Source: Alphaproteobacteria bacterium
Lineage (GTDB): Bacteria > Pseudomonadota > Alphaproteobacteria > Rhizobiales > Beijerinckiaceae
Direction: 5' to 3'
Length of the DNA stretch: 55,260 nt
NCBI GenBank assembly: GCA_021325385.1
Contig: JAJPHH010000104.1
Location: forward strand, 1-55,260
Below are positions 17,955 through 33,440 of this stretch, piece after piece. A program made the translations under genes and the position numbers. Numbering within the stretch: the first letter of the stretch is position 1; each line of letters opens with the position of its first letter. The notes under the pieces are model-generated. The model was not told the origin of the DNA. It made no database searches and worked only from the letters and a program-made list of their open reading frames with translations.

Positions 17955-18851
17955 CTATTGGGGCTTGGTCCCGCCCAAGCTGCCGCCGGTGACGTTGGCG
18001 CCGTTATTGGCGAAGTCGTTGTCGCCGAAACTGTTGACCGCGCCGCCGGCAATGGCGACGCCGGCGGCGCTGCCGTAGATCGCCGATTTCGCTAGCCAGG
18101 CGACGCCCCCTCTCGCGTTCACCCCCGCGATGCTGTCATTGGCCAAAACGCTGGTTTTCACCATGGCCTGGCCGCCGGCAAGATCCAGGCCGGTGGGATT
18201 GTTGGAAAGCTTGCTGTTCGTCACCGTCACCTGGCCGGCAAGCACCTCCAGGCCTCTCGTGTTGTTCGTCGCGGTGACGGCGTCGAGCGTGATCGGCTCG
18301 CTGCCAGCGCCGCTGATGAAGACGCCCGCGGCCGAATTGTCCGACACGATGGTATTCGAGACCGACAGGATGGGCGGATTGGTCGGCGCATAATCGATGC
18401 CGGCGTCGCTGAAATGGCGGATGACGCAATTGACGATCTGCACCGAGCCGGCCGTGTTGACGAAGACGCCGTCACGGCCCGCGCCCTCGCCGTCGAGCAA
18501 CAACCCGTTGAGCAGGATCGTGTCGGAACTTCCGGCATTGATGTCGATCGCGTCGGCGGCGCCGCTCGTTTGCGCGATCGAGGCGAAGCCGTGGCCCTGG
18601 ATGCTGATCGAGGTGCTGATGGCGAGGGCCCCGTAACCGGCCGAATCGAGCGCCTCGATCTCGGCGCCGAGGGGGTTGCTGGCGGCGACGACATCGTAAG
18701 CCTGCTGGAAGCTGCGGCATGGCGCGGCCAAAGTACAGGGGTTGGAATCGTCGCCGTGGCCGGAGACGAAGACGCGCACAAGCTGCGCGTGAGCCGGCGG
18801 CGCGACCATTGCGGCGGCGAGCGAGGCGATCAGGACTGCGATGCGGATCAT
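17955..18851 (-). CDS. Exported beta-helix protein P1
   Basis: The product is 298 aa with a Sec signal peptide (MIRIAVLIASLAAAMVAPPAHAQL). The head is the most divergent of the array: VRVFVSGHGDDSNPCTLAAPCRSFQQAYD, with two Cys likely disulfide-linked. The body shows short repeated strands (VSNT..SDNSAAGVFISG, VTNSKLSNNPTGLDL) typical of a right-handed parallel beta-helix. It ends AVNSFGDNDFANNGANVTGGSL. No pectate-lyase or other catalytic motif is visible. A surface or periplasmic binding role is inferred. Last gene of the array in transcription order, convergent with erpA. Confidence 0.85.
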   Translation of the reverse strand: MIRIAVLIASLAAAMVAPPAHAQLVRVFVSGHGDDSNPCTLAAPCRSFQQAYDVVAASNPLGAEIEALDSAGYGALAISTSISIQGHGFASIAQTSGAADAIDINAGSSDTILLNGLLLDGEGAGRDGVFVNTAGSVQIVNCVIRHFSDAGIDYAPTNPPILSVSNTIVSDNSAAGVFISGAGSEPITLDAVTATNNTRGLEVLAGQVTVTNSKLSNNPTGLDLAGGQAMVKTSVLANDSIAGVNARGGVAWLAKSAIYGSAAGVAIAGGAVNSFGDNDFANNGANVTGGSLGGTKPQ

Positions 18852-18882
18852 GTGCTTGTCCCCCCCTGCTGCGGAGCCGGCG

Positions 18883-19794
18883 CTATTGCGGGGAAACTGA
18901 CGTCATGCTGCCGCCGCTCACGTCGGCGCCGTTATTGGCGATATCGTTGTCGCCGAAGCTGTTGACCGCGCCGCCCTGGATGAGCACCCCAGTTCCGTTG
19001 CCATAGATCGCCGCACCGGCCAGCCAAGTGGGCGAAAATGTCCACACGCCGGCATCGCCGTTGTTGGACAAGACGCTATTTTTCACCAGGATCTGGCCGC
19101 CGCCAACAAGCAAACCGTAGTTGTTGTTCGATAAGTTGCTGTTCGAGAGCATCACTTGTCCGCCAGCGACAACCACGCCTCTATTGTCATGGGTCGCGTT
19201 GATGGCGTCGAGCATGACCCGCGGATTGCCGGATTGCGGCTGGATCAAGACGCCGAGCGCCCCCCCTGCAGCTGGCCCCACTTCGTCCGAAGTTATCGTG
19301 TTCGAGATCGAAAGAACGGCCGCATCGCTCGCCTCATAGTCGACGCCGTGATCGAAGTGGCGGATCACGCAATTGACGATCTGCACCGAGCCGGCCGCAT
19401 TGACGAGTACGCCGTCACGGCCCGCGCCCTCGCCGTCGAGCAATAACCCGTTGAGCAGGATCGTATCCGAAGCGCCGGCGCTGATGACGATCGCGTCGCC
19501 GCCGCTCGTCGCGCTGATCGAAGCAAAGCCGTGGCCTTGAACGCTGACGGCCTGAGCGATGGTCAGCGGCCCATAGCCGGCCGGATCGAGCGCGGCGATC
19601 TCGCCGCCGGCGGCGATGACGTTGTCGTGCACGTATTGGAAGGTGCGGCACGGATTGGTCGGCGCGCCGCAGCCCGCGGCGTCAGACCCATGGCCGGAGA
19701 CCCAGGCGCGATTGGCGGAGCCCGCTTGGGCCGGCGAGAGCGAAAGAGCGAGCGAAGCGAGCGTGATCGCCGCGAGCACAGACGTCTTGATCAT
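18883..19794 (-). CDS. Exported beta-helix protein P2 (mosaic of P1 and P3 types)
   Basis: The product is 303 aa. Residues 1 to about 66 match P3 almost exactly (SPAQAGSANRAWVSGHGSD, GCGAPT-PCRTFQYVHDNVIA). From about residue 80 on it matches P1 instead (SVQGHGFASI, SDTILLNGLLLDGEGAGRD, GSVQIVNCVIRHF). The switch around 66-85 marks it as a recombinant of its two neighbours. The tail is NSFGDNDIANNGADVSGGSM. There is a signal peptide, and a parallel beta-helix fold is predicted from the repeated short strands. No enzyme motif is seen. P1 starts 31 nt downstream of its stop. Confidence 0.85.
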   Translation of the reverse strand: MIKTSVLAAITLASLALSLSPAQAGSANRAWVSGHGSDAAGCGAPTNPCRTFQYVHDNVIAAGGEIAALDPAGYGPLTIAQAVSVQGHGFASISATSGGDAIVISAGASDTILLNGLLLDGEGAGRDGVLVNAAGSVQIVNCVIRHFDHGVDYEASDAAVLSISNTITSDEVGPAAGGALGVLIQPQSGNPRVMLDAINATHDNRGVVVAGGQVMLSNSNLSNNNYGLLVGGGQILVKNSVLSNNGDAGVWTFSPTWLAGAAIYGNGTGVLIQGGAVNSFGDNDIANNGADVSGGSMTSVSPQ

Positions 19795-19807
19795 TGGAGT
19801 CGCCCCG

Positions 19808-20821
19808 TCATCGCGGCTGGGCGGCCGTCAGAGGGCCGTAGATGTCTGTTCCGTTCTGATTGATCCGGTTGTCTCCATAGGTATATATTGTCGCTTGCCC
19901 TCCTACCGACTCATTCGTGGCCCCAACCCCGATTCGGGCGTTCGAGGCGATGACGGATCGGCCGAGCAGAACGGTCGCCGCACCTCCTGCGTCAAGGCCG
20001 TCATACGTATTGCCGCTCATGCTCGAATTGTCGATCGACGCGGCAAGAGCGGTGGCGGCGTCAATCTCTATCCCAAAGCTGTTATTGTTTAAGACGCTAT
20101 TGGACACGGCGATATTCAGCGCGCCGCCGTGTGATGTGTCGATGCTAACGCCAAGATAGTTGTTGACGGCCGTGAGACGATCGATCGTCCCCGTTGCACT
20201 CGGCGTCCCGCTCGGCGGTCGAAAAACGACGCCGGCAAGACCGTTGTCCGAGGCGATCACGTTCGAGATGAGAAAGCTCATCGAGCCGGACGTCGGCTGG
20301 ATCAGGACGCCATCGCCGCTCGGCTCTACCGGCTGGACCAGGGCCTGGCTTCGCTTGACGCCGGCGTTGCTATTGAAGAAATGCCGGATGACGCAGTTAA
20401 CGATGGTCAGGCCGGCGCCGGAATTGAAGACGACCCCGTTCGATCCAGTCCCGAGCCCGTCAATGTCGAGGCCGCGCAGCGTCACGACGTCGCTCGCGCC
20501 GGCGTTGATGACGATCGCGTCGCCCGAGACGGCCTGCACGCCGGCCGCGCCGACGCCGTCATTGACGATGCTCAGCGCCTTGCTGATCGTCACCGGCCCG
20601 TAGCCGGCCGGATCAAGTACATCGATCTCGCCGCCGGCGGCGATGACGTTGTCGTGGACGTACTGGAAGGTGCGGCAGGGCGAGGTCGGCGCGCCGCAGC
20701 CGGCGGCGTCAGACCCATGGCCGGAGACCCAGGCGCGGTTGGCGGAGCCCGCCTGGGCCGGCGAGAGCGCGAGAGAAAGCGAGGCGAGCGTCGTCGCCGC
20801 GAGCAAAGACATCCTGGTCAT
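19808..20821 (-). CDS. Exported beta-helix protein P3
   Basis: The product is 337 aa, the longest intact copy. A signal peptide (MTRMSLLAATTLASLSLALSPAQAG) precedes the array head NRAWVSGHGSDAAGCGAPTSPCRT. EIDVLDPAGYGPVTISKALS, TLRGLDIDGLGTGSNGVVFN and GTPSATGTIDRLTAVNN closely match P8, so these two form a subtype. It carries a private insertion (FNSNAGVKRSQALVQPVEPSG) before VLIQPTSGSM. The tail is YTYGDNRINQNGTDIYGPLT. The P2 start is 14 nt downstream, so co-transcription is likely. Confidence 0.85.
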   Translation of the reverse strand: MTRMSLLAATTLASLSLALSPAQAGSANRAWVSGHGSDAAGCGAPTSPCRTFQYVHDNVIAAGGEIDVLDPAGYGPVTISKALSIVNDGVGAAGVQAVSGDAIVINAGASDVVTLRGLDIDGLGTGSNGVVFNSGAGLTIVNCVIRHFFNSNAGVKRSQALVQPVEPSGDGVLIQPTSGSMSFLISNVIASDNGLAGVVFRPPSGTPSATGTIDRLTAVNNYLGVSIDTSHGGALNIAVSNSVLNNNSFGIEIDAATALAASIDNSSMSGNTYDGLDAGGAATVLLGRSVIASNARIGVGATNESVGGQATIYTYGDNRINQNGTDIYGPLTAAQPR

Positions 20822-20885
20822 AGCAGCCCCTCAACCCATCCGAGCCGGGCGCTCGGCGGCGAGATCAAAGTCTCAAAAAGAGGAA

Positions 20886-20947
20886 AATCACAATCTGAAT
20901 CGGCGCCGGCGGGCTGACTTTTATTGGGAGGACTTGGCGCCTTGGCC
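20886..20947. repeat. Direct repeat, copy 1 (regulator 3' end)
   Basis: About 62 bp similar to 21256-21317, with roughly ten mismatches. On the minus strand both copies contain the last codons (QGA-S-Q), the TAA stop and the sequence just after it. Copy 1 is thus the duplicated 3' end of the regulator gene at 21291. Confidence 0.7.
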
Positions 20948-21139
20948 CCCGCGCGCGGCAAGGCGGCCAAGGTCGACCAGGCCTTGATAGATCAAACCTT
21001 CGTCCTCATAGATTTCGAGGTACATGATTTGAAGCGAAAGCGATCGGCCCAGATCGACTTCGATCCGCCTTATCCGATCCGAGTTCGTCCGCCGGCCGTT
21101 GGGCAGGTCAAGAATTTTCGCGCGCATCACGGCCCTCAT
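20921..21139 (-). pseudogene. Probable 3' remnant of a second regulator copy
   Basis: A 72-residue frame from ATG 21139 ends GQGAKSSQ, matching GQGAESPQ at the end of the regulator at 21291, and the TAA and the bases after it are also shared. Upstream the translation (RAKILDLPNGRRTNSDRIRR...LEIYEDEGLIYQGL) only weakly resembles the regulator. It may be a decayed duplicate or a short unrelated gene that acquired the regulator tail. It lies directly upstream of P3 on the same strand. Confidence 0.4.
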
Positions 21140-21255
21140 TGCGACTTCCAGCGCCGCGGCGACGATGCGGAGCGGCTCGTTGCGCCGGACCCGTCCTCGA
21201 CAGTTCCTCTGGCGGCTGGCGCTCGCAAAAAAATGGAATGCTCGAAACATCGAGC

Positions 21256-21317
21256 AATCACAAACTGAATCGGCGCTGGCCGGCTGACTTTTATTGGGGG
21301 GATTCCGCACCCTGGCC
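21256..21317. repeat. Direct repeat, copy 2 (regulator 3' end)
   Basis: This is the partner of 20886-20947 and includes the real stop of the regulator gene at 21291. The central stretch GGCTGACTTTTATTGGG is shared without mismatch. Confidence 0.7.
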
Positions 21318-22253
21318 GTCGCGCTCTTCCGCGAACGCGTCTCGAAACGCTTGATCGATGATTGCGAGCTTGACGGATTGCTGGGCGAGATACTCGCCGC
21401 GGAATTCCGCCGACACCCACATGACGGATTTGCCACGCTCGCCGAACCAGCCGAGGCTGCCCATGGCCTCGGCCCGGCGCAGCTTGCGCGTCAGATGGCT
21501 GCGCGACAGATGGATTCTTGCGCCGAGATCGTCGAACGAGGCGACGGTCGAGGGGACGCGCTCGACGCCGGGCGGGACGTCGGCAAGCCCGGCGATGAGC
21601 CAATCCATGACCACGCCGCCCTCGTTCAGCCACGTGAAAAGGGAAAAGGTCGGGGCCGGCGCGCGGATGGCGTCGGAGCGCAAAAGCCCGTCGGCGATGC
21701 GCGGGTGAACCGTCGCGATGCGCTCGGGCTGAGCGAGGAACGCCTCGCGGCGGTCGAGGCCGTCGAGATCGTCCAAGGTCGCCAGATGCGCCGTCAGCCA
21801 GGCCGAGACGGATTGAACGGCGTGGGCGCTCGGCTCGAGCGGCCGCTGCCGCCGGTCGCCATCATGCGGCGCGGGCCGGACATAGCCGTATTTGAGCATT
21901 TCCTTGAGAAAGGCGTCCGCCGTGTTCTTGCTGGCGACGCCGCGAGCGGCGACCGATTCGATGAATTTGGTCTGCCGCAGCCCGCCGCCTTCGCCCGCGG
22001 CGGCGAAATATTGCGCCAGCGCCATATGGGCCATCAGCCATCTCTGCTGGGTGGCGAAGACGGCGGCGAGCCTGGGGTTGAGCTCCTGGATCGACAGCAG
22101 GGACAGAGCCTGTCGGCGGATGCACGGGATGAGCCGCGGATGCTTTGCGATTTCCGCCGCGCTCAGCGGCGCCCGCGGCGCGAGAAAACGCCATCCGCCG
22201 CGCGGCGACATTGACGGCCGGCGCTGGGCGCCCCCGCCCGAAAACTCGCCCAT
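21291..22253 (-). CDS. Two-domain winged-helix transcriptional regulator
   Basis: The product is about 320 aa from ATG 22253; ATG 22211 is an alternative. There is no signal peptide. Two helix-turn-helix-like regions are visible: around 95-150 (LRQTKFIESVAARGVASKNTADAFLKEM, then KYGYVRP) and around 240-300 (VASFDDLGARIHLSRSHLTRKLRRAEAMG, then a wing-like GERGKSVMWVS). This suggests an internally duplicated MarR/PadR-like DNA-binding protein. It lies between P3 and P4 on the same strand and is a candidate regulator of the array; that link rests only on position. Confidence 0.6.
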   Translation of the reverse strand: MGEFSGGGAQRRPSMSPRGGWRFLAPRAPLSAAEIAKHPRLIPCIRRQALSLLSIQELNPRLAAVFATQQRWLMAHMALAQYFAAAGEGGGLRQTKFIESVAARGVASKNTADAFLKEMLKYGYVRPAPHDGDRRQRPLEPSAHAVQSVSAWLTAHLATLDDLDGLDRREAFLAQPERIATVHPRIADGLLRSDAIRAPAPTFSLFTWLNEGGVVMDWLIAGLADVPPGVERVPSTVASFDDLGARIHLSRSHLTRKLRRAEAMGSLGWFGERGKSVMWVSAEFRGEYLAQQSVKLAIIDQAFRDAFAEERDGQGAESPQ

Positions 22254-22332
22254 GGCGATCCCCGACTCGTCCTGAAGCCCAAGCGCATCTTACCGAGCCG
22301 GAGGTTATTCGAGGAAGGGCGCGTGGCCGATT

Positions 22333-23115
22333 CTAGCGGTTGCGCGTGACGTTGTCCCGGGCGGTGAAATTGGCGGATTGGCCGGCGCCGAGCCGGCGCA
22401 GCGTCTCCATCATCCAAGCGACGAAATATCTGTGATTATTCGCCCTGACGTCGGCGCGCCGATGCGGCGGCTTGGGGCGGGCCTTGAGCTGCTCGCTGCG
22501 AACCGGTTCGGCCAGGACCCGGGGCTCGGGCGAAGCGGCGGCGAGGCGAGGCGCTTTGGGCGCGGCGATCGTCTTGACGTCGATCCCGGCCTTTTCGGCA
22601 TCAGCGGCGCTGAGCCAGGTCATGCCTTCGGGCGGCGCCGCGGTGATGTAGACGACCGCGCGATCCGGCAAGCCGATCTTGCCGAGATAGGCGCCCAGCA
22701 AGGCGTTCGGTGCGCCCGCCTCTTTCGTCTGACCATTCTTCAGCGTGTAGGCGGCATGGAAGCCGATCTGCGAGCCGTCCTCCATGATGCGCGGCGCGCC
22801 GCCGAGCCAGGCAACGGCGCAGGCCGAGGCGCAATGGCTGTCCGCCGGCACGAGCGTCGCATAATTCTTCAGCCTGATCGCCGTGCCGATCTTGATCGCG
22901 GCTTCAAGATCGCCGCCCTCGCCCTGAAAGACGACGATTCCCTTCGGAAACTGCATCAATCGCTTGGCGAAGGCCTCGTCGTCCCCGGGCTGCAACGTGC
23001 CGGAGACGATGATCGCGCCGGTCTCTTGCGAGCCGACCGGCGCCGCGACGATCGTCGCCGCCGACGCGGCGCCGGCGCAGAGAAGAGAGGCAGTGACAAG
23101 AATGAAGCGATTCAT
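22333..23115 (-). CDS. Periplasmic ClpP/crotonase-fold protein (COG3904-like)
   Basis: The product is 260 aa with a signal peptide (MNRFILVTASLLCAGAASAA). The sequence follows the ClpP-like pattern: a substrate-lining strand (IVVFQGEGGDLEAAIKIG), the nucleophile region DSHCASACAVAWLGG with Ser97, and SQIGFHAAY with His120. The acid residue was not placed with confidence. The C-terminal 70 residues are basic and Pro-rich. The family is predicted to be secreted serine peptidases, but activity is unproven. It sits inside the beta-helix array, between the regulator and P4. Confidence 0.72.
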   Translation of the reverse strand: MNRFILVTASLLCAGAASAATIVAAPVGSQETGAIIVSGTLQPGDDEAFAKRLMQFPKGIVVFQGEGGDLEAAIKIGTAIRLKNYATLVPADSHCASACAVAWLGGAPRIMEDGSQIGFHAAYTLKNGQTKEAGAPNALLGAYLGKIGLPDRAVVYITAAPPEGMTWLSAADAEKAGIDVKTIAAPKAPRLAAASPEPRVLAEPVRSEQLKARPKPPHRRADVRANNHRYFVAWMMETLRRLGAGQSANFTARDNVTRNR

Positions 23116-23313
23116 CGCTCTGGCTTGATTCTGCGACGCAGCAGACTCGCGAGGGCGACTTTACTTGAGCTTTTGCGTCGCGCCAACCTCGTGTCTGTCT
23201 CACTACATATGAGACGCCGCCAGAGGCGGATTTCGTCATTGCTTGCGCGCGCCTCACATCTCTCTGAACTGGACGCCTCTGGCAAGTTTTGGCGCGACGC
23301 GCCGCGATCCGCG

Positions 23314-24210
23314 TCAGTTTCCGCTGAAGGCAGTGAGGCTTCCTCCGTAAACATTGGATTGGATGTTGTTCCAGATACGATTGTCGCCATAGCTGCCGAC
23401 CACCGCGCCAGCGCCGAGGAAAACGCCGTGGTAGCCGTTTCCTACGGCGAGCGACCGCGTCAACGCCAGCGTGACCGAGCCATTCGCTCCAAAACCATCG
23501 TACCAATTCTTGCTTGCATTGACCTCATTCGCAACGAGGTAGCTGCCGGCCGCGCTGGAAGCGGAGCCGTCTATATAGACGCCCTCGAAATTGCCGGTCG
23601 CCTCGACATTGGAGATTGTTCCTTGCACCGTCGCCGAACCTTGAGGGTAAGCGAGAAGGCCGTAGCCGTTCGACCATAAGGTCGTATTGGAGATCGATAC
23701 GGTCACGCCGCCGCTCGCGCTGCTTGGCATGAGCATGACGCCGCCCGAGGTGAAGCGTCGAATGGCGCAATTGACGATGGTGAGGCGAAAGGCCGAAACC
23801 AGGTCGACGCCGTTTGCGCCAGTTCCGAGGCCCTCGATCTCGAGCCCACGCAAAAGCACCTCGTCGCCTGACCCTGCATTGATGGTAATTGCGTTCTGGC
23901 CTGACGTCCCCTGCTGCACGCCGGCGACGCCGACGCCGTCATTGACGATGCTCAGCGCCTTGGTGATCGTGATCGGCCCATAGCCCGCCGGATCGAGCAC
24001 GTCGATCTCGCCGCCCGAAGCGACGACGTTGTCATGCGCGTACTGGAACGTGCGGCAGGGCGAGGCCGGCGCGCCGCACCCCGCCTGGTCGACGCCGTGG
24101 CCCGACACCCAGGCGCGGTTCGCGCTCGGCGCCGCGCCGACGGGCGTGGAGAGAACGACCGCGAGCGCGACGCACGTGGTCGCCGCGATCAGTGACGGTG
24201 ATTTAAGCAT
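23314..24210 (-). CDS. Exported beta-helix protein P4
   Basis: The product is 298 aa with a signal peptide (MLKSPSLIAATTCVALAVVL...VGAAPSA). Its head NRAWVSGHGVDQAGCGAPAS and PCRTFQYAHDNVVASGGEID is identical to P5 over this stretch and nearly so to P6. It then carries its own body with strands such as VSISNTTLWSNGYGLLAYPQ and ISNVEATGNFEGVYIDGSAS. The tail is VGSYGDNRIWNNIQSNVYGGSL. The pattern is a parallel beta-helix with two head cysteines and no catalytic site seen. A GC hairpin lies between the P5 stop and this start. Confidence 0.85.
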   Translation of the reverse strand: MLKSPSLIAATTCVALAVVLSTPVGAAPSANRAWVSGHGVDQAGCGAPASPCRTFQYAHDNVVASGGEIDVLDPAGYGPITITKALSIVNDGVGVAGVQQGTSGQNAITINAGSGDEVLLRGLEIEGLGTGANGVDLVSAFRLTIVNCAIRRFTSGGVMLMPSSASGGVTVSISNTTLWSNGYGLLAYPQGSATVQGTISNVEATGNFEGVYIDGSASSAAGSYLVANEVNASKNWYDGFGANGSVTLALTRSLAVGNGYHGVFLGAGAVVGSYGDNRIWNNIQSNVYGGSLTAFSGN

Positions 24211-24229
24211 GCGATCACCCCCTCATATG

Positions 24230-24252
24230 GGAGGCGCGCCACGCGCGCCTCC
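24230..24252 (-). terminator. GC hairpin between P5 and P4
   Basis: GGAGGCGCG-CCACG-CGCGCCTCC is a perfect 9-bp stem, 32 nt past the P5 stop and 20 nt before the P4 start. It may terminate P5 or shape the P4 leader. Confidence 0.45.
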
Positions 24253-24283
24253 GTTGACGACCCAGCCGATGCCGAGCGGAGCG

Positions 24284-25222
24284 CTATTGCATTTGAATGG
24301 GCGTCAAGCTGCCGCCATTTGTCGTATCGGCGATAGAATTGTTGCCAAACGTCTTGATCGTCCCTCCGGAGTCGACGCTGTAGCCGCCTGCCGAGTTTCC
24401 GTATATGGAGGATTGCGTGATAAACATCGTCGCCAATTGCGCGGTTACGCCGTACGAATTGTTGAAAGCCTTGGCGTTGACCGCCATGAAGCTCACATGC
24501 ACCGAGGCGTCGTTGCTGCCATTGGCGAAGAATCCAACATAGTTTCCGGCCCCGACGCTATCCGCAGCTTGGGCCTTGATAATAGAGCCGCTCGCGGCGA
24601 GATCGCCATTGACGAGAAATCCTGTATAGCCCGGCCCAATCGCCTGGACCCGCTCGTAAAACGCGGCGGCGCTGGCGCTCGGGCTGAAATAGACGCCTGA
24701 ATTCCCATAGTCCGAGACGATCGTGTCGGAGACGTGGACGGTCGTTCCGCCCCCGGCAAGATTGAGTCCGTTCTGGGCGAAGCCGCGCAGGATGCAATTT
24801 TGGATGTCGAGCAAGCCGGCGCTGGTCAGCGTCACGCCATGGCTCGCGACGTCCAGACCCTCGATCGTCAATCCGCGCAGCAAGACCTTGTCGGTCGCGC
24901 TCGCATGGACGACAATGGCGCTCTGGTTCGCCGTCCCCTGCTGCACGCCGGCGACGCCGACGCCGTCATTGACGATGCTGATCGCCTTGGTGATCGTGAT
25001 CGGGCCGTATCCCCCCGGATCGAGCACGTCGATCTCGCCGCCCGAAGCGACGACGTTGTCATGCGCGTATTGGAACGTGCGGCAGGGCGAGGCCGGCGCG
25101 CCGCAGCCCGCCTGGTCGACGCCGTGGCCCGACACCCAGGCGCGATTCGTCAAGCCCGACGCGTCGGCAGGCGCAAAGCTGAAAGCGGCGAGCGCCGCAA
25201 CCAACAGACAAGTCTTCGTCAT
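24284..25222 (-). CDS. Exported beta-helix protein P5
   Basis: The product is 312 aa from ATG 25222, which begins the signal peptide MTKTCLLVAALAAFSFAPADAS; the open frame upstream to 25303 is not coding. The head is the same as in P4. The body is distinctive (YERVQAIGPGYTGFLVNGDL, SVGAGNYVGFFANGSNDASV) and the tail differs from all other intact copies: TIKTFGNNSIADTTNGGSL then TPIQMQ. The fragment at 27182 has the same tail type. Predicted exported right-handed beta-helix; function unknown. Confidence 0.85.
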   Translation of the reverse strand: MTKTCLLVAALAAFSFAPADASGLTNRAWVSGHGVDQAGCGAPASPCRTFQYAHDNVVASGGEIDVLDPGGYGPITITKAISIVNDGVGVAGVQQGTANQSAIVVHASATDKVLLRGLTIEGLDVASHGVTLTSAGLLDIQNCILRGFAQNGLNLAGGGTTVHVSDTIVSDYGNSGVYFSPSASAAAFYERVQAIGPGYTGFLVNGDLAASGSIIKAQAADSVGAGNYVGFFANGSNDASVHVSFMAVNAKAFNNSYGVTAQLATMFITQSSIYGNSAGGYSVDSGGTIKTFGNNSIADTTNGGSLTPIQMQ

Positions 25223-25248
25223 CGAGAAGTCCCCCAAATCGGCGCGCT

Positions 25249-25266
25249 CATGTGCGTCCGCACATG
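25249..25266 (-). terminator. Hairpin between P6 and P5
   Basis: CATGTGCG-TC-CGCACATG is a perfect palindromic stem 46 nt past the P6 stop and 27 nt before the P5 start. Its placement resembles that of the hairpin between P5 and P4. Confidence 0.4.
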
Positions 25267-25311
25267 TGGAAGAAACGGCCGGCTCCGCTCGTCCGGCGCG
25301 CATGGACGGCG

Positions 25312-26295
25312 TCAGTTCCCGGATGTGGTCGTCAGCGCTCCGCTGATATTGGCCCCATTTTCGAAGATGCGATTGTCGCCATAGGTGAAACTCGCGCCAG
25401 AGCCGGTGAAGACGCCTGTCCCATTGCCGGTCGCAACGAAGCGCGTGAGCACGGCGGTCCCGCTATTGTAGAGCCCATAGACGGAGTTATTGCTGGCGTT
25501 CGAATCGGCGACGAAAACGGCTTTCGTGGTGATGACGCGTATTCCGATCTCGTTCCCGCTCGCCGTAGCCCGGGTAAGAGTCGCCTTCCCCGTCACGAAT
25601 GAGTATCCGGCTGTGAGATTATTGGCGGAGACGCTGTCGACGATCGTCACGGCCGCCGCGTCGTTTCCAACTTGTATCACGCCGAAGGCGTTGTTGTTTG
25701 TCGCCGTACGATTAATGATTCCTGTAACGGCCGCCGTTCCCTCGATATCGACTCCATAGCTATCGCCGTCGATGCTGGTATCGGCGATCGAGAAGGTCAT
25801 GGCGCCGGAGGCGTTGATGAAAATGCCGTCATTGGAGAAGCGGCGGAAGGCGCAGTTGGCGATTGTGAGCGCCGCGCCTGAATTGAACGTAAGCCCGTTT
25901 TGTCCGTTGTTCAGTCCCTCGACCGAAAGCCCGCGCAGGGAAACGGCGTCGCTCGCGCCCGCGTTGACGACGATCGCGTCCGCGCCCGATGTCCCCTGCT
26001 GCACGCCGGCGACGCCAACGCCGTCATTGACGATGCTCAGCGCCTTGGTGATGGTTATCGGCCCATAGCCGGCCGGATCCAGCACGTCGATCTCGCCGCC
26101 GGAGGCGACGATGTTGTCGTGCGTATACTGGAAGGTGCGGCACGGCGACGCCGGCGCGCCGCAGCCCGCCTGGTCGACGCCATGTCCCGATACCCAGGCG
26201 CGGCTCAGAGACGCCGCTTCGGCGCGGCCAGACGCCAGGCCGAAGAAAATCACGGCGAGCGCCGCAGCGGCGCCCGTCGAACGATGAATTGTCAT
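25312..26295 (-). CDS. Exported beta-helix protein P6
   Basis: The product is 327 aa from ATG 26295 with AGAGGGG upstream; the GTG two codons earlier is less likely. The signal peptide (MTIHRSTGAAAALAVIFFGLASGRAEAA) leads to LSRAWVSGHGVDQAGCG and the shared head. The body has many short strand repeats (ATNNNAFGVIQVG, SVSANNLTAGYSFVTG, ATASGNEIGIRVIT) and the tail FTYGDNRIFENGANISGALTTTSGN. Body and tail match the frameshifted copy at 27469, so P6 and P7 are a duplicate pair. A conserved 15-bp upstream element lies 50 nt before the ATG. Confidence 0.85.
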   Translation of the reverse strand: MTIHRSTGAAAALAVIFFGLASGRAEAASLSRAWVSGHGVDQAGCGAPASPCRTFQYTHDNIVASGGEIDVLDPAGYGPITITKALSIVNDGVGVAGVQQGTSGADAIVVNAGASDAVSLRGLSVEGLNNGQNGLTFNSGAALTIANCAFRRFSNDGIFINASGAMTFSIADTSIDGDSYGVDIEGTAAVTGIINRTATNNNAFGVIQVGNDAAAVTIVDSVSANNLTAGYSFVTGKATLTRATASGNEIGIRVITTKAVFVADSNASNNSVYGLYNSGTAVLTRFVATGNGTGVFTGSGASFTYGDNRIFENGANISGALTTTSGN

Positions 26296-26344
26296 GAGCA
26301 CCCCTCTTAGCTCGCCGGCGGGATTGTCCGCGGCGGACTAAGTA

Positions 26345-26359
26345 TTACGGGATGGTTCG
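26345..26359 (-). promoter_or_regulatory. Upstream element shared by P6 and P7
   Basis: TTACGGGATGGTTCG on the plus strand (CGAACCATCCCGTAA in gene orientation) starts 50 nt before the P6 ATG. TTACGGGATGTTTCG lies exactly 50 nt before the P7 ATG. It may be part of a promoter or simply duplicated with the gene. Confidence 0.4.
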
Positions 26360-26460
26360 CCGGGTCCAGCGGTTAAAATCGCGCGCCGAGCGTGTTGCGC
26401 CTGATGGATGCGCCAAGCCGTTGGCGTTAGCGGGTTCGGCCGCCCCGCTCGCCGAAATCC

Positions 26461-26481
26461 GGCCGGCCGCCGCAGCCGGCC
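26461..26481 (-). terminator. GC hairpin after the Gly/aromatic-rich gene
   Basis: GGCCGGC-CGCCGCA-GCCGGCC is a perfect 7-bp stem about 54 nt past the stop at 26535. There is no U-run. Confidence 0.35.
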
Positions 26482-26534
26482 GTATGGGCGCCCGGCGGGA
26501 GCCTCGTCGGGCCTTCGCAAAGACTCGCGGCCGG

Positions 26535-26999
26535 CTAGTAGGCCCAGTAGCTTGCGCCGTAGCCGCAAGCGTAGCCGTACGGATAGACCCACCGGTAGCC
26601 GTTCCAGTACGGCGAGCAATCGTACGGGTAGCCGCCGTAGTCGAAGCCGAAGAAGGGGGCGCCGGCAAAGAAGAAGAAGCGCCGATGCCTGTGATGGCGG
26701 AAGTCGAAGTCGCGGTCTCGATCGAAGTCGAAGCCGCGCCGATGTCCGAAGCCGAACTCAGCGAACTGGCTCCTTCTTACAAAATTGTCGTGGAGCGCGG
26801 CGCCGCCATGGAACGCCGGCATTCCGCCGTGGAAGCTTCCGAACGGCGCTCCGCCGCCGTGGAAGCCGCCGCCTCCGCCATGGAGGCCGCCTCCGCCGCC
26901 TGGACGAAACGCCGCCGAAGCCGGCGCCGACGCCAGCGCGGCGCCCAATCCGATCGCCACCGCCGACGAGGCGACGGCGGCAAGTGTCGTTATGCGCAT
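26535..26999 (-). CDS. Secreted Gly/His/Phe-rich protein
   Basis: The product is 154 aa from ATG 26999 with GGAG 7 nt upstream. A signal peptide (MRITTLAAVASSAVAIGLGAALASAPASA) precedes a glycine/histidine-rich region (GGGGGLHGGGGGFHGGG), then an Arg/Asp/His/Phe-rich stretch (GFDFDRDRDFDFRHHRHRR). The C-terminus is Tyr/Trp-rich (GGYPYDCSPYWNGYRW..., two Cys). Such proteins are often exported and possibly disordered or surface-bound. The function is unknown. It interrupts the beta-helix array on the same strand. Confidence 0.7.
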   Translation of the reverse strand: MRITTLAAVASSAVAIGLGAALASAPASAAFRPGGGGGLHGGGGGFHGGGAPFGSFHGGMPAFHGGAALHDNFVRRSQFAEFGFGHRRGFDFDRDRDFDFRHHRHRRFFFFAGAPFFGFDYGGYPYDCSPYWNGYRWVYPYGYACGYGASYWAY

Positions 27000-27181
27000 G
27001 ACTGTTCTCCAGCATTGGAAGGCTTGCGCCCTCCACTTGTCGAACAGTCGGGTCGGTCGCCGTATTCGCCGCCATTCATTCAAATCGTCGCGATCGCCGG
27101 CTGGCTTCCCTCATGCGCCGGCCTCGTCGAAGCGTCGGGCCGGACGCCGTTTCCCGTTGGCGGCCTCGGCGACGGGGCGAT

Positions 27182-27294
27182 TCAATGCTGCGCGATCGGG
27201 GTCAGCGATCCCTGGTTATTCGCGTCGGCGATGTTGTTGTTGCCGAAAGAGTCGAGCGTTCCGCCGCCGACGCCTTAAAGCGATCACTAGTCAT
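27182..27294 (-). pseudogene. Beta-helix gene remnant with internal deletion
   Basis: On the minus strand, ATG 27294 starts MTSDRF, like the P7 start MTDSRF, and is preceded by the same GGGGTCAT leader. Within 7 codons the sequence jumps, out of frame, into a beta-helix tail: GGTLDSFGNNNIADANNQG then SLTPIAQH and TGA at 27182. That tail matches P5 (FGNNSIADTTNGGSLTPIQMQ). Roughly 850 bp of the gene body is missing, so the fragment cannot make the protein. Confidence 0.72.
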
Positions 27295-27468
27295 GATGAC
27301 CCCCTCAGCCCGCGAGCAGGATTTTCCGCGGTGAGGATCGGTCAAAACCGCGCTTGGCGCGCCGTCAGGGCTGCTCCCATCGACTAGCTAGACGAGCTCC
27401 CGCCGGCGCGGCCGAGTCGCGACGCTCCTCGTCTCTCGATACAGACGGCAATGATTTTAGGTACGACT

Positions 27469-28456
27469 CTAATTTCCCGTCACGGGCGTCAGCGTTCCAC
27501 TGACATTGGTCCCGTTCTCAAGGATGCGATTGTCGCCATAGGTGAAAACGGTGCCGAATTCCGTAGACAGTCCTGCTCCGTTCCCTGTCGCCGTGAAACG
27601 CGTGATAATGACGATTCCGCCATCATTGAAAAGGCCGTCATCGACATTGTTGCTCGCGGTCGAATCGCTGACCAAGACTGTCTTGTCGGTCTCGACGGTT
27701 ATCCCGAAATTGCTGCCGTTCGCGGTGACCCGGCTGAGCGTCGCCTGCCCCTTCTGGATATAAAACCCATCATAGGTATTATTGGCGGCGACGCTGTCGA
27801 CGATCGTGACGGCGGCCGAGTCGTTTATCGCTTGTTCGACGCCTTGATCGTTATTGTCTGCTTCCGTGTGCGAGATTGTCCCCGTGATCGGCGCGCTTCC
27901 CAGTATGTAGATGCCAGCGCCGTTATCGCTGACGACGGTGTTCGAGACGGAATACGCCATCGGGCTGCTCGAATTGATGAAAACGCCGATATTGACGAAA
28001 TGGCGGAAGATGCAATTCGTGATAGCGAGCTTTGCGCCTGTATTGAAGTTAAGGCCGTACCGGCCGCTTCCGAGGCCGTCGACTGTGAGGCCGCGGATGA
28101 AGACCGCGTCGGACGGGCCGGCGTTGATCGTGATCGCGTCCGCCTGCGACGTCCCCTGCTGCACGCCGGCGACGCCGACGCCGTCATTGACGATGCTCAG
28201 CCTTGGTGATGGTTATCGGCCCATAGCCGGCCGGGTCGAGCACGTCGATCTCGCCGGCGGCGACGACGATATTGTCGTGGGCGTATTGCAAGGTCCGGCA
28301 GGGCGAAGCCGGCGAGCCGCAACCGGCCTGATCGACGCCATGTCCCGAGACCCAGGCGCGGCTGGCGCTCGGCACGGCGTGGGCGGGGCCGGCGGCGAAG
28401 CCAAAGGAAATCACGGCGAGCGCCGTGGCGGCGCCCATAAAGCGGCTATCCGTCAT
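27469..28456 (-). pseudogene. Beta-helix copy P7, broken by a 2-bp deletion
   Basis: The reading frame starts at ATG 28456 (MTDSRFMGAATALAVISFGF, signal peptide) with the normal head RAWVSGHGVDQAGCGSPASP. It fails at about 28199, where CTCAGCCTTGG replaces CTCAGCGCCTTGG of P6. The loss of two bases gives KAEHRQ and a stop. The rest, in another frame, is intact down to TYGDNRILENGTNVSGTLT at 27469. Restoring two bases would give about 328 aa. Apart from that lesion it looks undamaged, so the break is recent or possibly reversible. Confidence 0.85.
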
Positions 28457-28505
28457 GATGACCCCTTTCCGCCGGCGGACCCGGTTGTCGGCGCCAAGTC
28501 CTATC

Positions 28506-28520
28506 TTACGGGATGTTTCG
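28506..28520 (-). promoter_or_regulatory. Upstream element shared by P7 and P6
   Basis: TTACGGGATGTTTCG starts 50 nt before the P7 ATG and pairs with the site at 26345 for P6, at the same distance. Confidence 0.4.
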
Positions 28521-28602
28521 ATGGGGCGAGCTGATCGGAGCAAGCAAAGATGTTTTGATCATCGGACGTCCCCGTAAACTGCGAGCCGCGTGCGCGCCGA
28601 CG

Positions 28603-29565
28603 TCACCGCGGCGTGAAGGTCGTATTAAGGGACCCGACAATATCTGACGTCCCGCTGCCGTTGATGCGGTTGTCGCCATAGGTATAGAGCCTGTTTGGCG
28701 AGGTATTATTGACGACCCCGAAAAGGCTGTTCGATGTGATGACCGAGCGGCCGAGCAGGACGTTGGCAGTGGCGCCGGCGGAAAGGCCGGTTCCCCCGTT
28801 GCCGTTCATGCTCGAATTGTCGATCGAGACGGTAAGCTGACCGCCGCCGCCGGAGACGAGGACGCCGTACTGGCTATTCTCGCTCGCGACGTCATAAGAC
28901 AAGGCGAGGGCCATCACGCCGCCGCTTGTGTTAATCGAAGCAACGCTGATTCCAATTTGGTTACTCGTTGCGATGACGTGATCGATTTCGCCGGTGGCGC
29001 TGGGCGTTCCGCTTGCAGGCAGAAAAGAGACGCCGGCAAGGGCATTGTCCGAGGCGGTCACATTGGAGACAAGAAAGACCATCGTGCCCGAGGTCGGTTG
29101 GATCAGGATGCCGTTGTCACCGAAGTGTCGGACGACGCAATTGACGATCGTCAAACCGCCGCCAGAATTGAAGACGATCCCGTTCAATCCGGTTCCGAGC
29201 CCGTCGATGTTGAGACCGCGCAAGGTCACCGTATCGCTTGCGCCGGCGTTGATCGTGATGGCGTTTCCGGAGGCGGCCTGCACGCCGGCCGTGCCGACGC
29301 CGTCATTGACGATGCTCAGCGCCTTGTTGATCGTCACCGCGCCGTAGCCCGCGGGATCGAGCACGTCGATCTCGCCGCCGGCGGCGATGATATTGTCGTG
29401 GACGTACTGGAACGTCCGGCAGGGCGCGGTAGGCGCGCCGCAGCCCGGGGCGTCCGTCCCCTTGCCGGACAGCCACGCGCGGTTTGACAAAGCGTGAGCA
29501 GGCGAGAGCGCGAGGCCGCAGGCGGCGAGCGCCGCCGCCACGGTCAATAGGCGAGTCCTGATCAT
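28603..29565 (-). CDS. Exported beta-helix protein P8
   Basis: The product is 320 aa with a signal peptide (MIRTRLLTVAAALAACGLALSPAHA). The head is LSNRAWLSGKGTDAPGCGAP and PCRTFQYVHDNIIAAGGEID. The body agrees with P3 for most of its length (TLRGLNIDGLGTGLNGIVFN, VLIQPTSG-like ILIQPTSGTMVFLVSN, SGTPSATGEIDHVIATSN). The tail is YTYGDNRINGSGTSDIVGSL. This is the first copy of the array in transcription order and is divergent from the AraC gene at 29891. Confidence 0.85.
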   Translation of the reverse strand: MIRTRLLTVAAALAACGLALSPAHALSNRAWLSGKGTDAPGCGAPTAPCRTFQYVHDNIIAAGGEIDVLDPAGYGAVTINKALSIVNDGVGTAGVQAASGNAITINAGASDTVTLRGLNIDGLGTGLNGIVFNSGGGLTIVNCVVRHFGDNGILIQPTSGTMVFLVSNVTASDNALAGVSFLPASGTPSATGEIDHVIATSNQIGISVASINTSGGVMALALSYDVASENSQYGVLVSGGGGQLTVSIDNSSMNGNGGTGLSAGATANVLLGRSVITSNSLFGVVNNTSPNRLYTYGDNRINGSGTSDIVGSLNTTFTPR

Positions 29566-29890
29566 GGCAATCTTTCCCCAAAGCGTAGAGGCTGGACGCG
29601 CGCGTCACCATAGCGCCGTTGTCGTCGCCGTCTTGGACTGTACGGAAGAAACAATAGGACTGGACGGCACAACGGCCGCTATTTGGTCGCGCACAAAGCT
29701 GCGTTTCGCAGGCCGTGAGGCCAAACGCGCGCCCGGCCCTCCGTTTTGATTTTTCTTTTAGATCTCGTGAATTAGCGGTAGAGTGCCGATCGCGGCCGGG
29801 CGACGCAAGGCGATTTAGGAGGGCGGAGGGCCGCGTCATCCCGTAAGCGTCGAGGGCCCTTTTTTCGACTTGCTGTGGCGGAGGGGAGCC
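29566..29890. promoter_or_regulatory. Divergent intergenic region between P8 and the AraC gene
   Basis: This 325-bp gap must hold the promoter of P8 (leftward) and of the regulator (rightward). The A/T-rich TTTTGATTTTTCTTTTAG at about 29744-29761 is the most promoter-like part. No operator could be assigned. Confidence 0.35.
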
Positions 29891-30874
29891 ATGGCCGACA
29901 CCAGTCCGACAGGTCCCGTCAGAATTTCGACGGACGCCCTTCCCGAGCAGGCGCGGCTCGCGCTTTGGCGCGAAATTTACGGCCGCAATATCGTCAACGT
30001 CGACATCAAGCCGCTCGACGACCGGCCGTTCCGCGCCTCGGTGACGTTCCACGCTCTGCCCGGATTGGGCGTCGTCATCGGGTCGCGCTCCGACGCGACC
30101 TATGTCTCCCGAAAGGGCGGCGCGGCCAACATTCAGGACCCGCTGATCCTGACGCTGCCGACGCGAGGCGACGCGCATATCGAGCATCTCGGTCGCGAAT
30201 TTTCCGGCGGTCCGGGCGACGCGGTTCTTGGCACGGGCGTCGATCCGGGCGCCGCCACGCTCCGCGGCGACGGCGCCTTCATCACGCTCACCCTTCCCCG
30301 AGCCGCCCTGCAAGCGCTCGTGCCGAATGTCGACGCCGCCCTGATGCGGCCGCTCCCCGCGAGCAACCAGGCCTTGCGCCTGCTAATCAACTATCTCGGC
30401 CTGCTCAACAGCTTCGACGGACCGCTCGACCCGGCCCTGGCGCGCGCCTTTTCGACCCATATTCTCGACTTGACCGCGCTTGCGGTCGGCGCCGAGGGCG
30501 ATGCGCAAGAAATGGCCGCCGCCCGCGGCGCGAAGGCGGCTTGGCGGCGGGCGATCCTCGCCGAGATCGACGCCGGCGCCCATGCGCCGGATGCGTCAGC
30601 GGCGGCGATCGCTCGCAAGCTTGGCATTTCCGAGCGCTACTTGCGCGCTATCCTGGAGGAGACCGGCAAAACTTTCTCCGAGTTGACGCTCGAGCGACGC
30701 CTTCTCCTCGCCTGGCGGCGGCTCCACGACCCGCGCGCTCGCCGTCTAAAGATCGTCGACATCGCGTATTCGGCCGGCTTCTCCGATCTTTCTCATTTCA
30801 ACCGTACTTTTCGCCGCCGCTTCGGCGAGACGCCGACCAGCGCGCGAGCCGGACGGCGCGGCGGCGCGCCCTAG
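29891..30874 (+). CDS. AraC-family transcriptional regulator
   Basis: The product is 327 aa from ATG 29891, with GGAGGGGAG just upstream; extending to 29870 is unnecessary. The N-terminal part (residues 1-200) resembles AraC-binding-like domains (DALPEQARLALWREIYGRNI...). The C-terminal 100 residues hold two helix-turn-helix motifs: ASAAAIARKLGISERYLRAIL and RLKIVDIAYSAGFSDLSHFN-RTFRRRFGETP, the AraC signature. It is divergent from P8, so control of the beta-helix array is possible but unproven. Confidence 0.88.
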   Translation: MADTSPTGPVRISTDALPEQARLALWREIYGRNIVNVDIKPLDDRPFRASVTFHALPGLGVVIGSRSDATYVSRKGGAANIQDPLILTLPTRGDAHIEHLGREFSGGPGDAVLGTGVDPGAATLRGDGAFITLTLPRAALQALVPNVDAALMRPLPASNQALRLLINYLGLLNSFDGPLDPALARAFSTHILDLTALAVGAEGDAQEMAAARGAKAAWRRAILAEIDAGAHAPDASAAAIARKLGISERYLRAILEETGKTFSELTLERRLLLAWRRLHDPRARRLKIVDIAYSAGFSDLSHFNRTFRRRFGETPTSARAGRRGGAP

Positions 30875-30934
30875 TTGACGCTTGGCGGCCAGCTTTGGCT
30901 GAGCCACGCCATGGCGTCAGGCAACGGCCAGGGA

Positions 30935-31027
30935 ATCAGCTCAACGGATACGGTTTACACGTACGGCGACAATTCCGTGGCCGGCAATGGAGCCGACGTG
31001 AACGCCGCTTTGTCGAACGTGTCGCGC
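30935..31027 (+). pseudogene. Beta-helix tail fragment on the plus strand
   Basis: The plus-strand translation here reads ISSTDTVYTYGDNSVAGNGADVN then AALSNVSR, matching the array tail (YTYGDNRI--NGTDI-G-LT). There is no head or body. It shows that at least one further copy lay here, in the opposite orientation to the array. Confidence 0.7.
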
Positions 31028-31112
31028 TCGCGCGCCTCGCTCCGCCTTCGACCCTTGGGCGTTTCCACCGAGCGGTTTTATTGAATTTCGCTCGCCAGGA
31101 CGGGAGCTCAGG

Positions 31113-33266: not shown

Positions 33267-33340
33267 TGGGGGATAGTTCAACGGTAGAACAGCGGACTCT
33301 GACTCCGTTAATCTTGGTTCGAATCCAGGTCCCCCAGCCA
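33267..33340 (+). tRNA. tRNA-Gln(CUG)
   Basis: The 74-nt gene has acceptor stem TGGGGGA/TCCCCCA, D-arm GTTCAACGGTAGAAC, anticodon arm GCGGA-CTCTGAC-TCCGT (anticodon CUG), a T-loop TTCGAAT and an encoded GCCA end. It is intact. An integrase gene starts 100 nt downstream, so its 3' end probably served as an attachment site. Confidence 0.95.
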
Positions 33341-33401
33341 TCGAAAAGCGATCGGACTGGACGTGTAACTTATTGATTTTCCTTGCATTGACTGCGCTGT
33401 A

Positions 33402-33433
33402 ACTGTCCCATATGACTGTCCCATTTTTGGGAC
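33402..33433 (+). promoter_or_regulatory. Repeated operator-like sites before the integrase
   Basis: ACTGTCCCAT occurs at 33402-33411 and 33415-33424, and TGGGAC at 33428-33433 inverts the second copy (GTCCCA-TTTT-TGGGAC). It ends 7 nt before the integrase ATG. This could be an autoregulatory or excisionase-type binding site. Confidence 0.5.
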
Positions 33434-33440
33434 GCGCAAT

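Follow-up and report, generated by a model that had tools for sequence, protein, structure and literature searches.

The array of beta-helix genes in the window (the whole stretch of 55,260 nucleotides that was analysed) is one cluster among a genome-wide family and no special locus, and the heads of these genes have passed from copy to copy through homologous recombination or gene conversion, latest between neighbours. The members consist of a conserved N-terminal cap (the head), about 68 residues long and bearing two cysteines, followed by a long diversified beta-helix (the body). Quite possibly, although we hold this only tentatively, they form a lineage-specific, genome-wide family of Sec-exported right-handed beta-helix proteins which exchange their heads, are directed at polysaccharides and are in part under AraC control.

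The array and its genome-wide family

In the whole genome, 52 matches to the family model (E <= 1e-10) were found at 27 places on 24 contigs, and 48 of the 52 are full-length copies, extending from model position <= 20 to >= 270. Both head cysteines are present in all 48 full-length copies, and 47 of them have a signal-like start by a simple rule, not a dedicated predictor. The array in the window spans 17955-29565, where the ORF listing has shown seven intact copies and one frameshifted copy, all on the minus strand and interrupted by three unrelated genes. The coordinates, strand and copy number given for P1-P8 in the original prediction agree with the ORF check, and its two further fragments were also found, both as C-terminal pieces:

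17955..18851, minus: P1, exported beta-helix protein with a variant head and a P2-type body (ORF; PF13229 at 41.8 bits, cut-off 25.9; profile match 1-310)
18883..19794, minus: P2, chimera with a P3-like front and a P1-like body (MaxChi 78:11 then 64:194, chi2 108; best reversal p 9.7e-14)
19808..20821, minus: P3, with a P2-like front and a P8-like body (MaxChi 8:34 then 196:65; reversal triplets)
21291..22253, minus: interrupting gene with weak MarR-like similarity (PF01047 at 18.2 bits, under the cut-off of 24.6)
22333..23115, minus: interrupting gene, weak ClpP-like exported protein (NF045542 at 22 bits, under the cut-off of 120; no Pfam match)
23314..24210, minus: P4, head near-identical to that of P5, body nearest to that of a family gene on contig C77 (with P5, 95.9% over 218 bp)
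24284..25303 as listed, minus: P5, with a GNN end (ORF; family profile begins at 25222)
25312..26301, minus: P6, exported beta-helix protein (ORF; PF13229 at 35.2 bits)
26535..27083, minus: interrupting gene, small exported Gly/His/Phe-rich protein (ORF; no Pfam match)
27194..27265, minus: fragment, P5-like C-terminus of 24 residues (tblastn E 2e-5, 71% identity)
27469..28462, minus: P7, broken, with different frames for head and body (two ORF pieces; three-frame reading)
28603..29565, minus: P8, the array's first gene (AlphaFold2 on the mature part: pLDDT 87.2, pTM 0.84)
29870..30874, plus: AraC-family regulator, AraC_binding_2 and HTH_18 (PF14525 at 46.1 bits, PF12833 at 71.2 bits)
30887..31024, plus: fragment, P6-like C-terminus of 47 residues (tblastn E 2.6e-4; profile E 6.7e-7 on ORF 30875-31081)

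The true start of P5 probably lies inside the listed ORF, near 25222, and the frameshift of P7 sits near its head-body junction. The body subtypes proposed earlier were recovered: body amino acid identity is 62% for P1/P2 and also for P3/P8, the pieces of P7 are closest to P6 (51%), and P4 and P5 stand apart with at most 48% and 41%, respectively, to any body within the window. The head ascribed to all copies is shared generally, but P1 has a variant head, VFVSGHGDDSNPCTLAAPCRSFQQ, with 43-57% identity to the other six; likewise, the terminal GDN motif is upheld except in P5.

Family loci were found in Methylocapsa sp. S129 and on a contig filed under Myxococcales, and the head residues are conserved across genera, including that contig. 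Among the same-genus relatives, the family is present in one of ten genomes, with 15 copies, most of them in one cluster at another location; copy number and place vary between relatives, as the comparison of the locus suggested in the original prediction has revealed. Copy counts from the order and class searches are lower bounds, because about 5 or 6 candidates were scored per genome. At the candidate insertion site, the genes argS, dgt and erpA adjoin one another in seven of the ten same-genus genomes and are separated or cut by a contig end in three, in a comparison of rows without matches of the family query P2. In the genome G010, the family genes lie on contigs C5 and C17 and the argS/dgt/erpA site on C57, hence at different places.

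A phage origin was considered and rejected, as four window copies scanned against PHROGs gave zero matches and none of the 26 stretches picked up in viral contigs by a pattern scan is a relative. No tRNA-Gln attachment repeat of >= 13 nt was found. A common neighbour gene was also looked for, and no Pfam family occurs in more than 3 of the 68 scanned neighbours (84 listed), GGDEF and AraC reaching 3 each. The search for AMO (methane oxidation) gave zero matches in this genome and likewise in the control genomes. Among the literature matches listed, there is no paper on this beta-helix family.

Exchange of heads between copies

Recombination or gene conversion between the copies, as originally predicted, is borne out by the triplet test, which requires opposite parents for the two gene halves. 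With 44 copies having a recognisable head and more than 230 residues from the head onward, 65 parent-reversal triplets were obtained and 13 of the 44 copies were flagged, whereas four sets simulated without recombination gave 0 reversals each. The 13 flagged copies are not 13 events, because one exchange can flag both partners. For seven of these copies p is below 1e-7, and for the remaining six it ranges from 1.5e-7 to 4.7e-7; the best simulated p is 1.1e-6, near the threshold of 1e-6. A few reversal triplets include L072_2700, a long-branch row. G010 also holds a flagged copy. MaxChi, together with the triplet test, has shown the breakpoints that a recombination scan was to look for, with P2 as a clear chimera; its switch point lies inside the head, at about codon 54, and so the head of P2 is itself mixed. 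The flag of P3 may stem from the same exchange as that of P2.

P4 and P5 have 218 bp in common at 96%, after which their bodies are unrelated, and identical silent sites number 38/41 in the head and 23/49 in the body (Fisher p 3e-6). The body of P4 is the sister of L065_6425 on C77 (SH-aLRT 100). In general, head tracts are 85-96% identical, and the near-identical recent tracts take in the head and its margin, not the whole body. Forcing together the bodies of the C77 head-sisters 6425 and 7382 was rejected (AU p 2e-6), as was holding together the bodies of P2 and P3 (AU p 1e-4); for the bodies of P4 and P5 the test does not reject (p 0.084), and for P4, P5 and P6 p is 0.016. For the short heads, none of the three AU tests made rejects the grouping: P4 with C77 6425 (p 0.19), C77 7382 with 2853 (p 0.45) and P1 with P2 (p 0.79, where the constrained tree even surpasses the unconstrained one by 20.6 log units).

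Silent sites are conserved up to about codon 70 and then drop to saturation, identity falling there from 0.69 to 0.40 while amino acid identity goes from 0.69 to 0.62. In 18 adjacent pairs the head silent identity is 0.753, versus 0.638 in 928 others (permutation p 2e-4), and the bodies of neighbours are slightly more similar too (0.469 versus 0.432, p 0.03). Concerted evolution of heads by array was tried over the whole tree, where array-wise homogenisation is unsupported because label changes number 21 for heads and 22 for bodies.

The drop at codon 70 bears directly on ordinary birth-and-death of secreted paralogs, in which purifying selection at the protein level would keep the head and its exchange would be functionally meaningless. 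This account agrees with the presence of pseudogenes and fragments and with head residues being conserved between genera and in the Myxococcales-filed contig, but the head silent sites are conserved as well and fall despite nearly equal amino acid identity, and simulations without recombination yield no reversals, which makes it rather unlikely.

The original prediction spoke of recombination that diversifies an exposed protein. A surface-variation system of this sort would use the clusters as donors and acceptors, recombination through the conserved heads swapping bodies into expressed positions and altering an exposed protein within a population, with phage, predators or competitors exerting the pressure. 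The mosaic genes, the broken copy with the fragments, the copy number varying between species, and heads long and similar enough to serve as recombination substrates all point in this direction. Antigen variation by gene conversion is described as recombination within a multigene family of exposed proteins (PMC4534519). The present family differs in that all but one of its 48 full-length copies begin with a signal-like start of their own. Antigen variation of the silent-cassette type uses donor copies lacking their own start and signal, together with one expression site; silent-cassette donors of this kind were searched for, and the same count speaks against them. Moreover, recent tracts are confined to the head and its edge, and bodies are near silent saturation between loci, even a best-matching distant pair (P4 and C77 6425) having 35/65 identical silent sites, so that no recent body swap is seen; a cassette system was not found either. 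The reverse transcriptase search (PF00078) gave no match here and was positive in three of 14 control genomes, on which basis a diversity-generating retroelement was rejected. Hence, this part of the original prediction is not supported, and we regard surface variation as improbable.

Constraint on silent sites, by which translation, RNA structure or a DNA site would keep the first 70 codons unchanged at the level of DNA or mRNA and so mimic homogenisation, seems somewhat more improbable still. For pairs with head identity >= 70%, the mean head silent identity to G010 is 0.682 (453 pairs), which is not below the 0.655 between loci within the genome (560 pairs) and exceeds that of three orthologs, a small baseline (261/485 summed); head codon usage alone predicts 0.525, versus 0.640 observed. 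On the other hand, identity to the heads of the Myxococcales-filed contig is just 0.459 for pairs so chosen, codons 20-29 of the head are as low as the body (0.46), neighbours stand above the background (up to 38/41), and chimeras such as P2 require exchange. An assembly artefact, in which short reads would have joined different genes through similar heads in a draft genome of 209 contigs, is very improbable, as the longest exact stretch between copies of non-overlapping ORFs is 71 bp, the head tracts fall short of 100% identity, and G010, in about 60 contigs, has a flagged copy too.

Predicted fold, neighbouring regulators and possible secretion

PF13229 exceeds its cut-off of 25.9 bits in seven of the eight window copies (P7 through its body piece), P5 having 20.6. 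A beta-solenoid fold is predicted for P8, with the head region less certain, and the nearest solved folds to this model are the AlgE4 epimerase (E 5.7e-5) and the pectate lyase Pel9A (E 1.2e-4), at a TM of about 0.5 and an rmsd of 8-11. Like PF13229 beta-helix proteins, PL9 and AlgE, the family has an N-terminal cap and stacked coils by prediction; it differs from PL9 and AlgE in having no sequence match to solved chains (E <= 0.01) and few conserved charged body residues. Only D83 and R88, immediately past the head, are charged body residues conserved at >= 80% in 61 rows. A lyase or epimerase role, which would call for conserved catalytic residues in the helix groove, was considered on account of the similar fold and was not adopted. 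Identity as NosD copper-maturation proteins was rejected, as only P2 among the seven intact copies matches TIGR04247 (21.6 bits, cut-off 300). A Pfam scan of the heads of four members gave nothing worth naming.

One copy in G010 carries, as a fusion, a mannanase-like domain of family GH113 that scores 72 bits against a cut-off of 27; this fusion is limited to one protein in one species. Two glutamates of this domain align with glutamates of solved endo-mannanases, which we take to be the catalytic ones. A role in polysaccharide binding or processing outside the cell is probable for the family proteins.

The AraC-family regulator is divergent from P8 across a 304-bp gap and matches the regulator of the C77 cluster along 948 bp with 84% nucleotide identity. 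Three of the four PF14525 genes in the genome adjoin family clusters, at three clusters, for which the chance is 3e-5, rising to 1e-3 when the two similar copies are taken as one; in G010, only one of six PF14525 matches lies inside a family cluster.

Family copies adjoin type II secretion system (T2SS) genes in three genomes. In this genome, a family gene is adjacent to the locus on C146 with gspO, D, E, F, H and I homologues, the sole one of three secretin loci having gspE, F, H and I; it takes only one of the 27 family places, and the window array lies elsewhere. In G010, the T2SS operon is flanked by the array end and by another family gene; its gspD scores 429.6 bits (cut-off 351), E, F, H, I, K, L, M and O were named from Pfam or best matches, with GspE at 532.5, below the NCBIfam cut-off of 630, and neither gspC nor gspG was recognised in this operon. 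In G017, a family gene lies beside gspD. At the secretin regions examined in other family-bearing genomes, G260 (one of two) and G034 (both), no family gene was found, and a T2SS is present without the family in five same-genus genomes. The Sec-type signal looked for in T2SS substrates occurs, by the simple rule, in 47 of the 48 full-length copies.

The beta-helix pectate lyases Pel3/PelI of Dickeya and Pectobacterium are secreted through the T2SS (PMC7949064). The likeness lies in a predicted exported, cysteine-bearing beta-helix and in T2SS genes that are present in the genome and adjoin some copies, and the difference in about fifty copies with no Fn3 domain in Pfam scans.

Meaning of the family

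As the computations show, the family has grown to 48 full-length copies in this genome, its heads having been exchanged between copies, most recently among neighbours, while the bodies have diverged to near silent saturation; the preferred reading takes it to be directed at polysaccharides. Divergent AraC-type regulators, sensing a small molecule, may turn on some clusters. Such an exchange would give a uniform common part across many different bodies and would not be a switch replacing an expressed gene. A more specific form of it, in which a T2SS-compatible uniform cap is reassorted by recombination over about fifty polysaccharide-recognising bodies, some under AraC control, in a free-living bacterium, is possible though doubtful, and perhaps the cap is reassorted across species too.

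The mycobacterial PE/PE_PGRS and PPE proteins are described as an expanded exported family with a conserved N-terminus, a variable remainder and recombination between copies (PMC3660525). The mode of evolution is the same as here, with no relationship found, so that the comparison is of the works-like kind only; fold and host differ, and whereas a PE/PPE member would be a mycobacterial protein with a PE or PPE motif, the loci of the present family lie in Methylocapsa sp. S129 and the Myxococcales-filed contig. The PE/PPE export route is also different from that of the present family.

If true, the specific form would be the bacterial counterpart of a repertoire of diversified binding proteins. 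The best-known large families that recombine while their front stays fixed and the rest varies come from pathogens, and immune pressure is invoked for them; such a pattern in the genus group of Methylocapsa sp. S129, together with hints of a T2SS link and a mannanase-like fusion, would suggest that substrate diversity or competition drives it. The family offers well-defined proteins and regulators, along with a candidate exporter.

The array and the extent of the family

The open reading frames of the window bore out the original prediction that the minus-strand array at 17955-29565 holds seven intact genes and one broken gene of a single family. The broken copy, P7, is divided by a frameshift near the junction of its head (the conserved two-cysteine N-terminal part, about 68 residues) and body (the diversified remainder). 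Two further fragments had been predicted nearby, and both are C-terminal pieces; three unrelated genes break up the array.

27194-27265, C-terminal fragment
30887-31024, C-terminal fragment
21291-22253, unrelated gene
22333-23115, unrelated gene
26535-27083, unrelated gene

The Pfam beta-helix cut-off is passed by seven of the eight window copies. The common head and terminal GDN ascribed to every copy hold except in P1, which has a variant head, and P5, which ends in GNN. Right of the array, a tRNA-Gln with a DUF6538/tyrosine recombinase gene after it (33267-35231) is the mark of an integrated element; no repeat of the tRNA-Gln end of at least 13 nt was found in the window.

A profile built from the seven intact copies gave 52 matches (E <= 1e-10) at 27 places on 24 contigs of the window's assembly (209 contigs, 5.35 Mb); the family is genome-wide and the array is one part of it. 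Among the loci analysed 54 ORF pieces match, 48 being full length; all 48 have the two head cysteines, 47 a signal-like start and 36 G[DN]N near the C-terminal end. At E <= 1e-10 the family is present in three of 40 relatives searched, and the same genomes are recovered with a profile made for the broader head type. These are Methylocapsa sp. S129, the only one of ten same-genus genomes with the family (15 copies, 13 in a single cluster), G017 (five copies) and G034 (three). With about five or six candidates scored per genome, 15 of 397 genomes matched order-wide and 2 of 385 class-wide at E <= 1e-20, the window's own included each time; no relative turned up when viral contigs were scanned with a pattern. 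A similar tandem set, its heads of the same type, lies on a contig recorded as part of a Myxococcales MAG (L046 5398-10897), where two adjacent copies have 264 bp exactly in common, and its sequence may reflect either cross-phylum transfer or misbinning. In S129, two of the 15 copies (C5 241495-242475 and 254338-255309) have one in-frame stop, hence copy loss is ongoing there too.

Recombination between copies

Many copies have heads with 85-96% identity over tracts of about 200-300 bp. P4 and P5 have 218 bp in common (95.9% identity), P2 and P3 237 bp from the start codon (88%) and two copies on contig C77 296 bp (90.5%). In MaxChi, 20 of 105 triplets of window copies reached p <= 0.001, the strongest case being P2, with a P3-like front (78/89 sites) and a P1-like rear (194/258). 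As heads and bodies differ in evolutionary rate, a parent-reversal requirement was added, i.e. opposite parents for the two halves, each half at p < 1e-6. It gave 65 reversals in 39,732 triplet tests in the window's genome, with 13 of 44 copies flagged, and two in S129, with 1 of 13 flagged; since one exchange may flag both of its partners, there are fewer events than flagged copies. For 7 of the 13 copies p is below 1e-7 (best 9.7e-14). Recombination between copies, as suggested earlier, is supported by MaxChi and by these 65 reversals against none in four simulated sets (body tree, slow heads, no recombination), whose best value, 1.1e-6, was near the threshold.

The trees agree with recombination in part. 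The heads of the C77 pair are sisters (SH-aLRT 99), and their bodies are closest to P4 and another C77 gene (SH-aLRT 100 and 99). Forcing the two bodies of the pair together is rejected (p 2e-6), as it is for the bodies of P2 and P3 (p 1e-4). None of three topology tests on the short heads gives a rejection, and the tree improves when the P1 and P2 heads are constrained together; across all copies, heads follow arrays no more than bodies do.

For copies at different places in the window's genome, bins of codons 1-70 have a fourfold silent identity of 0.46-0.76, which steps down to 0.40 in codons 70-79; amino-acid identity is 0.69 before this step and 0.62 after it. Body bins (0.36-0.51) are near the chance level for codon usage (0.37-0.49). 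The step is also present between the window's genome and S129, where head silent identity exceeds that of the orthologs argS (149/263), dgt (82/175) and erpA (30/47). Part of the silent conservation, between species included, may be constraint or transfer. Heads of adjacent copies are more alike at silent sites than those of other pairs (0.753 vs 0.638, permutation p 2e-4), and their bodies slightly so too (0.469 vs 0.432, p 0.03). Heads have thus been exchanged between copies, most recently between neighbours.

The surface-variation reading is not supported by this comparison. Recent tracts cover heads, at times with some tens of codons beyond, and no recent body swap was found among the copies compared. 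The best-matching bodies at distant loci, P4 and C77 6425 (57% amino-acid identity, 35/65 silent sites), are old, and reverse transcriptase had no match in the window's genome. Homogenisation of a shared part accounts for this pattern better than switching of an expressed antigen does.

Fold, export and regulation

Mature P8 was modelled as a right-handed beta-helix (pLDDT 87.2, pTM 0.84) with a less certain head, in which a short helix at residues 27-35 would cap the solenoid. Among solved structures, the modelled fold comes closest to AlgE4 mannuronan epimerase and pectate lyase Pel9A (TM about 0.5, rmsd 8-11); a sequence search of solved chains gave no match at E <= 0.01. Most columns that are at least 80% conserved across 61 copies either lie in the head or hold a glycine or apolar residue; D83 and R88, directly behind the head, are the charged residues of the body that reach this level. 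Two copies carry additional domains.

L052 3647-5908, minus strand, S129 copy with a GH113 mannanase-like domain
L065 12037-15081, plus strand, C77 copy with a Big_7 Ig-like domain plus a second part resembling a beta-helix

GGDEF diguanylate cyclase domains were seen in three of 68 scanned neighbours of family genes (e.g. L060 5357-6325, L069 192-2312).

In S129 a Sel1-repeat gene lies at the array end together with a T2SS operon, after which comes a further family gene. GspD scores above its NCBIfam cut-off. GspE falls below its own, and its name comes from Pfam and the best hit; the assignments of F, H, I, K, L, M and O rest on Pfam or weak best hits, and neither GspC nor GspG was identified in this operon. 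Three secretin loci were seen in the window's genome, one of which (contig C146) has gspE, F, H, I and an adjoining family gene, and in G017 a family gene lies ahead of gspD. Five same-genus genomes have the same operon (L117-L121) with no family member found, so the exporter is independent of the family expansion. Given these genomes, and the lack of a family link at both secretin regions of G034 and one of two in G260, the gene order is no more than suggestive of a T2SS link. According to PMC7949064, Pectobacterium and Dickeya are established cases in which the T2SS exports beta-helix enzymes that carry disulfide bonds.

A 304-bp gap separates P8 from a divergent AraC-family gene; related regulators occur at clusters C77 and C58, with two more in the S129 cluster. 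Over 948 bp the regulators of C77 and the window share 84% identity, so regulator and cluster were probably duplicated together. Three of the four PF14525 genes in the window's genome are the cluster regulators (window, C77, C58); only 3 of its 27 family places have such a regulator. In S129, one of six PF14525 matches lies inside the family cluster, whose second regulator has no PF14525 match.

Evolution and role of the family

The full proposed mechanism, joining a polysaccharide-directed repertoire, head exchange, T2SS export and AraC-type control, has slightly less than an even chance of being right, confidence being lowered by the GspE cut-off and the S129 regulator count, and three of the rival readings gain slightly. 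No description of the family was found in the literature searched. Mycobacterial PE/PPE families, as treated in PMC3660525, have a similar mode of evolution, and no relationship to them was found. Methylocapsa sp. S129 is described in PMC11237726 as being without methanol dehydrogenase, with a separate genus proposed; by analogy, the organism of the window may not be a typical methylotroph either. The family is large and recombining and consists of exported beta-helix proteins, and computation shows its evolution by recombination; its function is probably polysaccharide-directed and its export possibly through the T2SS.
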